Assembly (NCBI GenBank): GCA_020723085.1
Contig: DYJN01000018.1
Location: 1-64,000, forward strand
Source of the DNA: Arcobacter sp.
GTDB taxonomy: Bacteria > Acidobacteriota > Terriglobia > Bryobacterales > Bryobacteraceae
Length of the DNA stretch: 64,000 nucleotides
Direction of reading: 5' to 3'
In this document: in pieces, positions 37,454 through 44,948 of the stretch
How positions within the stretch are numbered: the stretch's first letter is position 1
How the letters are laid out: each line of letters opens with the position of its first letter
The notes under the pieces: generated by a model
Databases searched by the model: none
The model's input: only the letters and a program-made list of their open reading frames with translations
Told to the model about the DNA's origin: nothing
Made by a program: the position numbers and the translations under genes

Positions 37454-39382
<1,929 letters not shown>

Positions 39383-39739
39383 GGCTGATTGAACGTGAGT
39401 CTACCAAAGCCGCACGCCCGCGCAACATAGCAGGATTTTCGGGTTCTTTTCTCTCCTTCATGCATATTCAGTCAGCGCCTGCTGCCTGACTGCGCCCGGG
39501 CGGGTAATTCTTACCGGTATCCGGTCATTCTTTCCGCCCCCGGAAAGGGTGAAGTTCTGACAAATGCGAGCCTTACGTCCGGCACACGAATTGCTGAGGC
39601 GAACGGCGGCAGAGCGCGCCCGGTTTCCCGGCGCGCCAGGCGGAGCCGATTGTGGCCAGATTGACTCAGTACTTTTCTCGGTTGCGCCCGCCATGGAATC
39701 GATGTTCAATCGTCTCTGCGAGAACCAGTGGAGGTTGCC
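39383..39739. other. Divergent intergenic region between acs and the DUF5666 gene
   Basis: 357 bases without a credible gene. The part nearer acs holds a cluster of inverted repeats (39469-39546). A TTGACT hexamer at 39661-39666 has no clear -10 partner. Promoters for both flanking genes must be here. Confidence 0.45.
39469..39546. repeat. Cluster of short inverted repeats
   Basis: Three perfect inverted repeats within 78 bases: CAGTCAG/CTGACTG (39469-39475, 39486-39492), ACCGG/CCGGT around TAT (39513-39525, overlapping a GGTAA/TTACC pair that ends at 39515), and TTTCCG/CGGAAA around CCCC (39531-39546). They could be operators or a folded RNA leader. Alternative pairings share bases, as in switches, but no known class is recognised. 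Confidence 0.35.
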
Positions 39740-40489
39740 ATGACAGGAAGGAATATTTACGGACTCGCCTTGGCTCTGATGGCCTTTGGCGTCCTGTGTC
39801 CGGCACAGCCTGAGGATGTGCAGGATCTCGGTCCCAAGATTTTCCAGGCGCAGTGGGTGAGTGTCGACAAGTTGACGCCGGATCCTGCTTCCATCATTCC
39901 CTCTCCCTGGGGCAACGACCCGCTCCGGGATGGCGAAATCGAAGTCCGCGCCAAGGCACAGGTGAAGCTGGACCTTGAAGGAGCGGAGCCGGAGGCGGAG
40001 TACACTCTTTGGGTCTGCAAGTTCAGCTCGGCTCCGCTCCAGGACCGCTGCGCCGAACTCGGCAAGGTGCAAACCGATGAGGACGGCGACGCCGGCGCGG
40101 TGATCCCCTGGCCCAAGGATGCGTCCGGTCCCTTTGCCGTGTTCTTCGTGCTGACCCGCAATCAGACCACGATGTTCGTCTCGGGCTTCCACATGCCCTT
40201 GGGCGTGCCCCCGGTGACGGGCATCCCGCCCGCAGATGACGACGACACTCCGGATGACCCTCCGAAGCCGGAATGGAAAGAGGTGCAACTGAAAGGCACG
40301 GTCGCAAGCATTGGGTCCGGTTCCTTCATGGTCGGAGACGTCCTCGTTCAGGTCGACGACGACACGGAATTCTCCGGACGCGTGGAGGAGTTCGACGACC
40401 TCGAGGTTGGGATGACTGTGCACGTGATGGGCAAGAGCGTGTCCGGCACGGTTCTCGCCGCGCGCGTCATCGCCGCGGGAAGACCTTAG
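39740..40489 (+). CDS. Exported protein with C-terminal DUF5666-like domain
   Basis: A 249-residue secreted protein. The signal peptide covers about 1-22 (MTGRNIYGLALALMAFGVL). The middle (about 30-150) is a beta-rich domain with one likely disulfide (VCKFSSAPLQDRC). An acidic Pro/Asp linker (PPADDDDTPDDPPKP) follows, then a DUF5666-like OB-fold segment (about 183-245): VQLKGTVASIGSGSFMVGD, VQVDDDTEF, VGMTVHVMG, VLAARVIA. GGAGG (39730-39734) lies 5 nt before ATG 39740. Function unknown; DUF5666 domains are common in acidobacterial exported proteins. Confidence 0.78.
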   Translation: MTGRNIYGLALALMAFGVLCPAQPEDVQDLGPKIFQAQWVSVDKLTPDPASIIPSPWGNDPLRDGEIEVRAKAQVKLDLEGAEPEAEYTLWVCKFSSAPLQDRCAELGKVQTDEDGDAGAVIPWPKDASGPFAVFFVLTRNQTTMFVSGFHMPLGVPPVTGIPPADDDDTPDDPPKPEWKEVQLKGTVASIGSGSFMVGDVLVQVDDDTEFSGRVEEFDDLEVGMTVHVMGKSVSGTVLAARVIAAGRP

Positions 40490-40503: not shown

Positions 40504-41335
40504 TCAGACTTCCTGAATCACTTCGCCACCGGCGCTGACAAGCCTCAGCCGGAACGCCGGATTGCCATTGGCCGCTCCTCCGCGACCCACGCCGGATGCA
40601 AGCGCTCGCCCGCCAGCCGTTCGATGGCCTGCTGCCCGAAGCGCCGCAGCGCAATTCCGTCGCGCGCCGCCGCGCCCGAGCAGTCTCGCCGCCTGGATCG
40701 ATTCAATCACCGCCGCCGGATTGCTGTCGATCAGCACCTTGCACAGCGCCTGATAACCGCCTACGGCCCGGAACTCCTCAATGTCATCCGGGTTGAGCAA
40801 ACCGCAATTGCGCAGCACGGTCTTCTTCTGCCCCCGGAAGAAGGGCGCCTGGCTCCAGAGCCGTCGCGGTCAGCTTGTCCGCGCTGCCTCCGTCTTCGCC
40901 TTCGCCGATCCCCAGCACCAGCTTCAGCCGGTCCAGCACAGCCTTCGATCCGCGCGTGTAGCACGCCGTTCCCCGGCAGATGCAGACCGTGTGCCTGCCC
41001 TGCGGCTTCAGATTGAACAGTGCTTCGAACGCCGCCACGCTATGGATCCGCGCCCCGGAAATGCCCGTGCGGCTCAACAAGCACTCCAGATAGTCCGCGG
41101 GCAGGTACTTTTCCGGCTGGCTCTCCTGAATCTCTTCGAGGATGTTCAGCAGCATCCCCGGGCGCCCGCGGTGGCGCGCGATCAACCGGTCGAGAAAGTC
41201 CTGTTCGTCCGCCGTGAGAGGCCCGGGCGCGGGCTTTTCGCCGGGAAGAAGGGCCGAGGTCAAGCTCCCGTTCCCTTGCGCTACATACACGATCATCACA
41301 TCCGCATCTCGTCTTACACGCTTCGGGGAAAGCAT
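40504..41335 (-). pseudogene. Decayed NAD-linked [NiFe] hydrogenase remnant (hoxE, hoxF and hoxH pieces)
   Basis: Three fragments in operon order with frameshifts. (1) 41335 to about 40868: a HoxE/NuoE-like domain with HTVCICRGTACYTRGSK, cut off before the second cysteine pair (usually CLGAC) needed for the [2Fe-2S] cluster. (2) About 40857 to 40663, another frame: the N-terminal part of HoxF/NuoF, FFRGQKKTVLRNCG and VGGYQALCKVL up to GRGGA. (3) About 40661 to 40584, a third frame: RRFGQQAIERLAGERLHPAW, matching the region before VPGG in group 3 hydrogenase large subunits (HoxH). HoxU, HoxY and the Ni-binding cysteines are gone. The hoxE and hoxF assignments are firm; hoxH rests on a short segment. 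A NuoEF-type dehydrogenase origin is the alternative. Confidence 0.72.
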
Positions 41336-41427: not shown

Positions 41428-42117
41428 TCAGAAGCCGCGCACGCAGCGGATCCATGCCTGCATCCGGTCGTAATGCGATCCCGGCCAGTACAGCTGCCCG
41501 CACCCCGGGCACAGCAGGAACTCCTCGCACCACCGCCGCGTCTTCGGCGGGATCCGCTCCCACACCGTCTCTTTCGCCACCGGCTCGAGCAGCGCATTGC
41601 ACCGCAGGCACCGCCGCAGCGGCGCCGCCGCAGCCCACAGCCCGAGTTTTCCCGCCAGCCACGCGAGTTGCTCCCGCGGATTGTCAGCCCGCACCATCGC
41701 CCCCTGAGCCACCTGCCTCCTCATCAGCAGGCTGCGGTCGCGCGTCAGCAAGAACCGGCCTGCTGCGGACGCTTCAGCCAGCTCCGCATCACGGAGCCGC
41801 ACATCGTAGAGCGTGTCAAATCCCAGAATCCGCAGGTATTTCGCCAGCCGCCCCAGATGGCAATCCAGCACGAAGCGCCACTCCCCCTCCGGCGGCGCCT
41901 CGTACTTTCTCGGCGCCACTTCGACCGCCTGCCCGTCTTTCAGCGGCGCCGCCAGATCCGGCGGCGAGCCCACCTCCGGATGCGGCACGCCGAACGTCTC
42001 GATCGCGTGCTTCAGCGATGGGCGGTCATGGAATTCATACTCCAGCCATGCGCCCCGGCGCGCCGCGGGCAGGAAATCGTTCAGGTCTCCATGAAACCGG
42101 AACCGGGCACGCCCCAC
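41428..42117 (-). CDS. Ubiquitin-like and Mut7-C RNase domain protein
   Basis: A protein of about 229 residues. Residues 1-80 resemble the Ub-Mut7C beta-grasp domain (FRFHGDLNDFLPAARRG, LKHAIETFGVPHPEV). Residues about 80-225 are the Mut7-C domain, a PIN-like nuclease fold (FVLDCHLGRLAKYLRILGFDTLYD with conserved Asp, FLLTRDRSLLMRR) ending in a zinc ribbon (CLRCN and CPGCG). RNA substrate unknown; toxin-like or RNA-processing roles are speculation. The start is uncertain: GTG 42117 fits the domain edge and has TATGTT exactly 6 nt upstream; a TTG at 42138 is the alternative. Confidence 0.82.
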   Translation of the reverse strand: MGRARFRFHGDLNDFLPAARRGAWLEYEFHDRPSLKHAIETFGVPHPEVGSPPDLAAPLKDGQAVEVAPRKYEAPPEGEWRFVLDCHLGRLAKYLRILGFDTLYDVRLRDAELAEASAAGRFLLTRDRSLLMRRQVAQGAMVRADNPREQLAWLAGKLGLWAAAAPLRRCLRCNALLEPVAKETVWERIPPKTRRWCEEFLLCPGCGQLYWPGSHYDRMQAWIRCVRGF

Positions 42118-42123
42118 CCTTTC

Positions 42124-42129
42124 AACATA
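42124..42129 (-). promoter_or_regulatory. TATGTT -10-like box of the Mut7-C gene
   Basis: Minus-strand TATGTT with a 6-nt spacer to the GTG at 42117. Supports that start and a leaderless transcript. Confidence 0.35.
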
Positions 42130-42194
42130 ACGTCCCAAATGTAACAGGAGAAGCCTCCGGGAATTGTTTACGATGGGAGCAGGGATTCTGGAAT

Positions 42195-44948
42195 ATGACC
42201 ACGCTCCATCGCGTTGCAACGGGCCTGCGCGCATGCGCCGCGACAGCCCTGATTCTGACTCTCGCTGCCGCCGGCGCCGCGGCGCAGCCACCCGCGCCGA
42301 AGAAAATCACCTCCGTGGAGGGCATCACCGAGTACCGCCTCGACAACGGTCTGCGCGTGCTGCTCTTCCCCGACCCGTCGAAGTCCACCATTACGGTCAA
42401 CATCACCTACCTGGTCGGCTCGCGCCACGAGGACTATGGCGAAACCGGCATGGCGCACCTTCTCGAGCACCTGTTGTTCATGGGCTCGAAAAACCATCCC
42501 GATATCAAGAAGGAGCTTCAGGACCACGGCACGCGCCCGAACGGCACGACGGCGTGGGACCGCACCAACTACTTCGAAACGTTCACTGCGTCCGAGGAGA
42601 ACCTCCGGTGGGCGCTGTCGATGGAATCCGACCGCATGGTGAACAGCTTCATCGCGAAAAAGGATCTCGACAGCGAGATGACCGTGGTCCGCAACGAAAT
42701 GGAGTCGGGCGAGAACTCTCCGGCGCGCGTCCTGTTCGAGCGTGTGCTGAGCACCGCGTTTCTCTGGCACAACTACGGCAAGTCGACCATCGGCGCGCGC
42801 AGCGACGTGGAGCGCGTGCCCATCGAGCGGCTGCAGGCCTTCTACCGCCACTTCTACCAGCCGGACAACGCCCTTCTGGTGGTGGCGGGGAAGTTCGACG
42901 CGAACCTGGCGCTCTCCCTGATCCAGAAGTCCTTCGGCGCGATTCCGAAGCCGAACCGCCAGTTGCGGCGCACCTACACCGTCGAGCCGGTGCAGGACGG
43001 CGAGCGGACGGTAACGGTGCGGCGCGTGGGCGATGTACAGTATGTCGCCGCCGCCTGGCACATCCCGCCTGGTTCGCATGAAGAATATCCAGCCGTGGAG
43101 ATGGCCGTGGAGATCCTCGGCGACCAGCCATCGGGGAGGCTGTACAAAGCCCTGGTGGAGACGAAGAAGGCGGCAAACGTGAGCATGTTCAGCGTTCAGC
43201 TTAAGGATCCCGGCTTCGCGTTCGCCCAGGCCATGGTCCGCATGGACAGCTCCCTGGAAGACGCCCACAAGGCGCTGCTTGACGCCGTTGCTGAAGTCAG
43301 GACGAAGCCGTTCGCCAGGGATGAACTCGAGCGCCAGCGGACGCGGTGGCTGAAGAACTTCGAACTCCGCATGAACGACCCGCAGGAAGTCGCCCTCGAA
43401 CTCTCCGAGTGGCAGGCGATGGGGGATTGGTGCCTGATGTTCCTCCACCGGGACCGGATCGAAAAGGTCACGCTCGAGCAAGTGCAGAAGGCCGCAGAAA
43501 AGTATTTCATCCCCTCCAACTGCACCGTCGGCCTCTTCATTCCCGAGAAGCAGCCGGTTCGCGCCGAGGTGCCTGAGCCCCCCGCCGTCGAGAAGCTCGT
43601 CGAGTCATACACCGGCAAGGCGGTCGTCTCGCAGGGCGAGTCTTTCGACGCCTCCCCTGCCAACATCGACGGGCGCACCATCCGCGGGGAGATCAACGGC
43701 GGACTGAGGATCGCCCTGCTGCCCAAGAAGACGCGCGGCTCGCAGGTCACAGCCGTGCTCAGCCTTCATTTTGGCGACGAAAACAACCTCCGGGGCCAGT
43801 CTTTCGTCGGCGGGCTCGCCGGGCAGATGCTGATGCGCGGTACCGCAAAACACACCCGCCAGCAGATCCGCGACGAGCTCGACCGCATCAAGGCCCAGGT
43901 CAACGTCGGCGGCAATGCCTCCGGCGCCTCCGCCCGCATCACGACCACCCGGGAGAACCTCCCCGCGGCGATCGACCTCGTCTTCGAAATGCTGAAGGAA
44001 TCGGCATTCCCGGAAAGCGAGTTCGACCAGCTCAAGCGCCAGGTGCTCGCCTCGCTGGAAAGCGCGAAGAGCCAGCCGCAGACAATCGCCTCCACAGCGC
44101 TCCAGCGTCACCTCATCCCCTATCCCAAAGGCGATGTCCGGTACGTGCCCGCCATCGACGAGCAGATCGAAGGCATCCAGAACGTCACCCTGGACCAGGT
44201 GAAGCAGTTCCATGCGCAGTATTACGGCTTGGCCGAAGGCGAGCTTGCCGTCATCGGCGACTTCGACCCGGAAAGCATCCAGCAGCAGATCGCGAAACTT
44301 TCGCACGACTGGAAAAGCCGGAAGAATTACGCCAGAATCCTGCGGAAATACATGGAGGTCAAACCCGCCGCGTCCGCCTTTGAGACGCCGGACAAAGCCA
44401 ACGCCCTGTGGATGGCGGGAACGGCCTTCCGGCTCACCGATTCCGACTCGGATTATCCCGCTCTCGTCTTCGGCAATTACCTCCTGGGACAGGGCATGAA
44501 TTCCCGGCTTTTCGCCCGCATCCGCAACAAGGAGGGCCTGAGTTACGGCGTTGGCTCCCAATTGATCGTTGGCGCTGCGGACGACCACGCCCTCTTCATC
44601 GCCTTCGCCATCTGCTCCCCCGAAAACGCCCCGAAAGTGGAAGCTTCGTTCCGCGACGAAATGAAGAAGATCCTCGCGGAGGGTTTCACCGCGGAGGAGG
44701 TCGAGGCAGGCAAGAAGAGCTGGCTCCAGAGCCGGCAGGTCAGCCGCGAAAACGACGGAGAGCTGGTGAGCCGCCTGGTGAGCCACGCTTACGAGCGCCG
44801 TACGATGGCCTTTGACGCGCAGCTGGAAGCGAAGGTCAGGGCGCTCACGCCGGAACAGGTCCGCGCCGTCATGGCCAACTACCTGGAGCCGGCGAAGCTC
44901 ACTTACATGCGCGCCGGCGACTTCAGGAAGGTGAACGTCGCCTGGTGA
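42195..44948 (+). CDS. Two-domain M16 (insulinase-like) metalloprotease, exported
   Basis: A 917-residue periplasmic protease. After a signal peptide (1-30) comes a first M16 half with inverted zinc motif HLLEH (His88, Glu91, His92) and the distal Glu in VVRNEMESGEN. It is followed by an M16_C domain (RLQAFYRHFYQPDNALLVVAG), a linker, and a second, catalytically empty M16 half (about 500-917, FVGGLAGQMLMRGTAKHT, ARIRNKEGLSYGVGSQ). Both halves in one chain resemble PqqL-like proteins. Upstream in-frame sequence to 41142 does not look coding. The stop overlaps the GTG of the next gene by 4 nt. Confidence 0.9.
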   Translation: MTTLHRVATGLRACAATALILTLAAAGAAAQPPAPKKITSVEGITEYRLDNGLRVLLFPDPSKSTITVNITYLVGSRHEDYGETGMAHLLEHLLFMGSKNHPDIKKELQDHGTRPNGTTAWDRTNYFETFTASEENLRWALSMESDRMVNSFIAKKDLDSEMTVVRNEMESGENSPARVLFERVLSTAFLWHNYGKSTIGARSDVERVPIERLQAFYRHFYQPDNALLVVAGKFDANLALSLIQKSFGAIPKPNRQLRRTYTVEPVQDGERTVTVRRVGDVQYVAAAWHIPPGSHEEYPAVEMAVEILGDQPSGRLYKALVETKKAANVSMFSVQLKDPGFAFAQAMVRMDSSLEDAHKALLDAVAEVRTKPFARDELERQRTRWLKNFELRMNDPQEVALELSEWQAMGDWCLMFLHRDRIEKVTLEQVQKAAEKYFIPSNCTVGLFIPEKQPVRAEVPEPPAVEKLVESYTGKAVVSQGESFDASPANIDGRTIRGEINGGLRIALLPKKTRGSQVTAVLSLHFGDENNLRGQSFVGGLAGQMLMRGTAKHTRQQIRDELDRIKAQVNVGGNASGASARITTTRENLPAAIDLVFEMLKESAFPESEFDQLKRQVLASLESAKSQPQTIASTALQRHLIPYPKGDVRYVPAIDEQIEGIQNVTLDQVKQFHAQYYGLAEGELAVIGDFDPESIQQQIAKLSHDWKSRKNYARILRKYMEVKPAASAFETPDKANALWMAGTAFRLTDSDSDYPALVFGNYLLGQGMNSRLFARIRNKEGLSYGVGSQLIVGAADDHALFIAFAICSPENAPKVEASFRDEMKKILAEGFTAEEVEAGKKSWLQSRQVSRENDGELVSRLVSHAYERRTMAFDAQLEAKVRALTPEQVRAVMANYLEPAKLTYMRAGDFRKVNVAW

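Follow-up and report, generated by a model that had tools for sequence, protein, structure and literature searches.

The electron-bifurcating hydrogenase NiFe-HydABCSL (NiFe-Bfu) of Acetomicrobium mobile is represented by the structures PDB 7T2R and 7T30 (PMC8880783, PMC9304861), and the B2 [2Fe-2S] cluster of its HydB subunit, which is associated with bifurcation, has C438, C476, H525, C531 and C536 as ligands (PMC9304861). The Sporomusa-type Nfn transhydrogenase Stn (8OH5) combines NuoE-, NuoF- and GltD-like modules (PMC7483475, PMC10482914). Regarding the fate of hydrogenases along lineages, in ANME-1 archaea the enzyme was inherited vertically and lost differentially (PMC9894754). Together with the bidirectional NAD-linked HoxEFUYH hydrogenases of group 3d, these systems are the ones to which we compare a locus of a Bryobacteraceae species (genome G000, 4.19 Mb in 181 contigs). 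The window, that is, the whole stretch of 64,000 nucleotides that was analysed (G000:C93:1-64000), holds only a fossil of the operon, while several relatives keep it intact. We estimate a probability of about 95% that this fossil is the pseudogene remnant of a five-gene [NiFe] operon that was ancestral in the genus and was removed by three deletions, as one of several [NiFe] hydrogenase losses across the genome.

The intact cluster of the relatives has the order hoxE, hoxF::gltD, hoxU, hoxY, hoxH. It encodes a HoxE of 185 aa, a HoxF::GltD fusion of 1050 aa (domains Complex1_51K, NADH_4Fe-4S, Fer4_20 and Pyr_redox_2), a HoxU of 236 aa, a VhuG-like HoxY of 176 aa and a VhuA-like HoxH of 471 aa (PF00374; VhuA, 3.9e-122), the best-scoring models of the last two being of the Vhu/Mvh type. 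Among solved structures, 7T2R was the best match of both HoxF (655 bits) and HoxH (529 bits, versus 390 for the Hox structure 5XF9). As in NiFe-HydABCSL, there is a separate HoxE/HydC-like subunit, and four of the five B2 ligands (C438, H525, C531 and C536) are identical in the alignment of the relatives' HoxF; the fifth, C476, is replaced by Thr, a substitution shared by StnB (8OH5) and HydB of 8A6T. The relatives' enzyme may bifurcate electrons from H2 to ferredoxin and NAD. It differs from NiFe-HydABCSL in the C-terminal GltD/NfnB-like domain of HoxF and in its short U subunit. The gene order E-F-U-Y-H is common to group 3d, whose HoxF stands alone without an extra NAD(P)H domain, whereas the relatives encode the long NuoF::GltD protein and a HoxH that is nearer to 7T2R than to 5XF9. 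Stn joins the same kinds of modules, but there the GltD-like one is attached to a NuoG-like module and not to NuoF, and no [NiFe] hydrogenase takes part. The original prediction of a NAD-linked HoxEFUYH operon is borne out as to a [NiFe] hydrogenase operon and refined as to its type: the lost enzyme was no plain HoxEFUYH but had a HoxF::GltD subunit and was nearest to NiFe-HydABCSL. Compared with the ANME-1 case, G000 retains truncated remnants at several sites, and its hyp maturation genes are gone too.

The fossil spans positions 41263-40504 on the minus strand and consists of four pieces that keep the operon order hoxE, hoxF, hoxH, hoxH. Its first piece, the 5' part of hoxE (40862..41263, minus strand, about 133 codons), begins with TTG where the aligned congeners have ATG, and shows 83% aa identity with the intact hoxE at the same site in G099 and G126. 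It matched 2Fe-2S_thioredx PF01257 (7.6e-20), and HoxE was its best NCBIfam model (2.8e-19). The second piece (40675..40857, minus strand, about 61 codons, LWSQAPFFRGQKKTVLRNCGLLNPDDIEEF...AARLLGRGG) shares 90% DNA identity and, at the protein level, 77% aa identity (2.1e-31) with the hoxF::gltD gene of G099. A middle piece of hoxH follows (40573..40669, minus strand, DGIALRRFGQQAIERLAGERLHPAWV), with 89% DNA identity to hoxH of G099 and 86-89% to those of G126 and G144, and these matches to three congeners bear out what had been proposed with some reserve for this third block. The blocks HTVCICRGTACYTRG, TVLRNCGLLNPDDIEEF and RRFGQQAIERLAGERLHPAW were all found in the minus-strand frames as first described, in operon order; however, the set of three was incomplete, as a fourth block, earlier unrecognised, is the C-terminus of hoxH (40504..40572, minus strand). 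It reads PAFRLRLVSAGGEVIQEV followed by the stop codon and is collinear with the end of G099 hoxH, which reads PAYRLRLVGAGGEVIEET with the stop at the identical position.

In profile searches blocks 2 and 3 scored weakly because they are too short (NuoF, 5.6e-4, and the [NiFe] large subunit VhuA, 0.01, respectively), and their identity was settled by DNA comparison with the congeners. The matches to the G099 cluster are all collinear (40585-40674, 89%; 40663-40846, 90%; 40854 onward, 85%), and DNA identity between the pieces and the intact congener clusters is mostly 84-90%, with 77-86% for G144. The claim that key cluster cysteines are missing applies to half of those in HoxE: two of the four are kept (CICRGTAC), and the last two are deleted (TVACFGQC). 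Both Ni-binding motifs of HoxH, L1 (RxCGxC) and L2 (DPCxxCxxH), lie within deleted parts, so that the window lacks the large subunit with L1 and L2 that a functional [NiFe] hydrogenase operon has. Also as predicted, comparison with the G099 cluster revealed no part of hoxU or hoxY in the fossil. No stop or frameshift was found within the pieces, and no second intact copy of the cluster was found in G000, the window blocks being the only close matches genome-wide.

On one side the fossil is flanked by an intact DUF5666 gene (39728..40489, plus strand; PF18914, 5.6e-10), a stretch with homologous counterparts in G126, G144 and G044, and beyond it by an acetyl-CoA synthetase-like gene, acs (37454..39382, minus strand; AMP-binding, 2e-88, and ACAS_N), which is collinear in all four congeners compared with G000 (G099, G126, G144 and G044). 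On the other side lies an intact Mut7-C RNAse-domain gene (41428..42291, minus strand; PF01927, 6.4e-43) that adjoins the intact cluster in congeners, and the flanks remain collinear with the congeners across tens of kb. The original prediction had proposed this site as the place to look in related genomes, and an intact hydrogenase cluster does lie there, bounded by the acs/DUF5666 side and Mut7-C, in three of the four congeners (G099, G126 and G144). Two genomes from a different genus, G047 and G127, also have the intact cluster adjoining Mut7-C, and therefore its presence is ancestral. The pieces of the fossil are thus homologous to, and collinear with, the intact operon that occupies the orthologous site in relatives. 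At the same site G044 has neither a cluster nor a detectable remnant; its acs-Mut7-C interval (L045, G044:C1) apparently reflects a separate, traceless loss, and this genome retains hyp as well as two further [NiFe] hydrogenases.

These observations bear on the possibility that the pieces come from a dehydrogenase of the NuoEF or FdsGB type that was never a hydrogenase, which was to be favoured if the third block had no hydrogenase match and no relative had an intact cluster. Block 2 alone scores with NuoF models only, and block 1 also matches formate dehydrogenase gamma and NuoE models, but blocks 3 and 4 derive from hoxH, and in congeners the intact genes found at this site encode both a [NiFe] large subunit and a small subunit. 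A hydrogenase match and intact clusters having been found, the dehydrogenase origin is refuted and we regard it as scarcely credible.

With G099 as reference, the hydrogenase fossil results from three deletions of 562, 4235 and 832 bp. Junction A, between hoxF and hoxH (40663..40676, minus strand), corresponds to the largest one, which took the rest of hoxF::gltD, hoxU, hoxY and the 5' end of hoxH. Here the intact G099 sequence has a near-repeat matching at 11 of 12 bp, as good a match as about 0.07% of position pairs drawn at random attain, in agreement with the suggestion of GC-rich near-repeats and deletion by microhomology at this junction. It is the only such case among the three junctions examined: at junction B, between hoxE and hoxF (40849..40864, minus strand, 562 bp missing), the microhomology is not significant, and junction C, within hoxH (40572..40575, minus strand, 832 bp missing), has none. 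The ancestor of this Bryobacteraceae genus would have carried the operon hoxE, hoxF::gltD, hoxU, hoxY, hoxH at the site, and three internal deletions on the branch to the G000 species would have removed it, the largest probably via the 12-bp near-repeat. The group-1 and group-3b hydrogenases and the hyp maturation genes would have been deleted as well.

In a tree of a flanking gene region, G000 and G099 pair up (support 0.96), as do G044 and G144, G126 being nearer to the G000/G099 pair, and therefore the loss of the cluster in G044 appears to be separate from that in G000. Coding constraint in the hox pieces is relaxed on the G000 branch: changes at codon positions (1+2):3 were 28:31, versus 11:55 on two sister branches (p = 2.4e-4), and for hoxE alone 19:21 versus 6:36 (p = 0.0016). 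Flanking control genes showed little or no shift in the same comparison (p = 0.41, 0.14 and 0.04), and the hox excess against the control genes of G000 itself is moderate (p = 0.04). Constraint is relaxed and yet the hox blocks contain no stops or frameshifts, which fits a recent loss. For the hypE piece described below relaxation was not detected (p = 0.62); loss of constraint is thus not demonstrated by substitutions in all of the fossils. Possibly the decay of hox was earlier than that of hyp.

The truncated hoxE frame (40784-41296) could still be expressed and act as a small thioredoxin-fold protein, in a diminished or novel capacity, since about 133 codons remain open, free of stops and frameshifts, and TTG offers an alternative start. 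However, two of its four cluster cysteines are deleted, its C-terminus is out-of-frame sequence, the partner subunits are gone and its constraint is relaxed on the G000 branch, all of which makes such a role very improbable.

Loss of the operon by deletion is accompanied by similar losses across the genome. The G000 assembly has no [NiFe] large subunit (PF00374) above cut-off, versus at least two in each of the four congeners, and no [FeFe] hydrogenase (PF02906), sought as a replacement, was found in G000 or in the four congeners. Regarding maturation, hypD and hypF are intact in all four congeners, while G000 has a 39-residue fragment of hypD and lacks hypF. Its hyp locus (G000:C55:33513-34057; L071:9514-10058) is a 545-bp fossil of the hypD end and the hypE start, flanked by 3.3-kb and 1.6-kb deletions relative to G099. 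The group-1 locus (NiFeSe-like and cytochrome c3-associated) is also a fossil (G000:C51:44846-45336; L084:8847-9337), with pieces of the downstream end only, including part of a maturation protease gene, and 3.65 kb deleted. The group-3b operon is absent, short upstream matches alone being left. Its site contains an insertion with a GH106 alpha-L-rhamnosidase (G000:C40:77767-83532; L085:11767-17533), and to the right there is no anchor, the insertion and a 60-bp leader match being followed by unrelated housekeeping genes.

The deleted hox parts were not found elsewhere in the assembly, a fact that bears on whether an intact operon was collapsed or mis-joined during assembly or binning. The assembly is a draft of 181 contigs and the species is represented by one genome; nevertheless, different contigs show independent truncation or absence of three further hydrogenase and hyp loci, the junctions sit mid-contig, and branch-specific coding decay in the hox pieces is not expected from mis-joins. 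An artefact was rejected on these grounds and is very improbable, although there is a small chance that a replicon with a hydrogenase was missed in such an assembly. As the other hydrogenases and the maturation machinery were lost too, the suggested recent loss of hydrogen metabolism appears to extend to the whole genome, and, judging from its gene content, G000 would be unable to metabolise H2. The loss of maturation and that of the enzymes may have reinforced each other, and an order of the events can be proposed only conditionally. We found no description of hydrogenase loss in Bryobacteraceae in the open-access literature.

Hydrogenases are patchily distributed across bacteria, and usually their absence alone is visible. 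In G000, truncated remnants at three loci and the removal of a fourth point to the abandonment, on one species branch, of a whole cofactor-dependent pathway, comprising three [NiFe] enzymes and the Hyp system that matures them, and these remnants make the timing and order of the loss testable. The case is ordinary in kind, lineage-specific gene loss being already known, but it is an unusually clean, complete and fresh example.

The relatives' cluster points, in addition, to a hydrogenase that is widespread in Acidobacteriota and apparently uncharacterised. The HoxF::GltD fusion gene was found in 58 of 200 sampled Bryobacteraceae genomes, and no description of a NuoF::GltD hydrogenase was found in the open-access literature. 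Fusion loci include L043:6489-9641 (G099), L044, L046, L047 and L048, and L091-L113 in named relatives. The fusion adjoins HoxH in several Chloroflexi MAGs too, and Longilinea has the HoxF part only. Tentatively, and at somewhat less than even odds, we propose that the lost enzyme belonged to an undescribed class of bifurcating [NiFe] hydrogenases whose NAD-site subunit carries a fused GltD/NfnB module of the NADP(H) type, a class frequent among Bryobacteraceae and also found in some Chloroflexi MAGs; the G000 species would be a natural knock-out that has lost every [NiFe] hydrogenase together with the maturation system, seen soon after these losses. Furthermore, a second cluster related to HoxF-U-Y-H occurs in G126 (L072:11762-16600, G126:C1 at about 3.62 Mb) and in G144:C45; its HoxF-like match stops at residue 567, short of the GltD-like domain, and identity in G126 is 48-54%.
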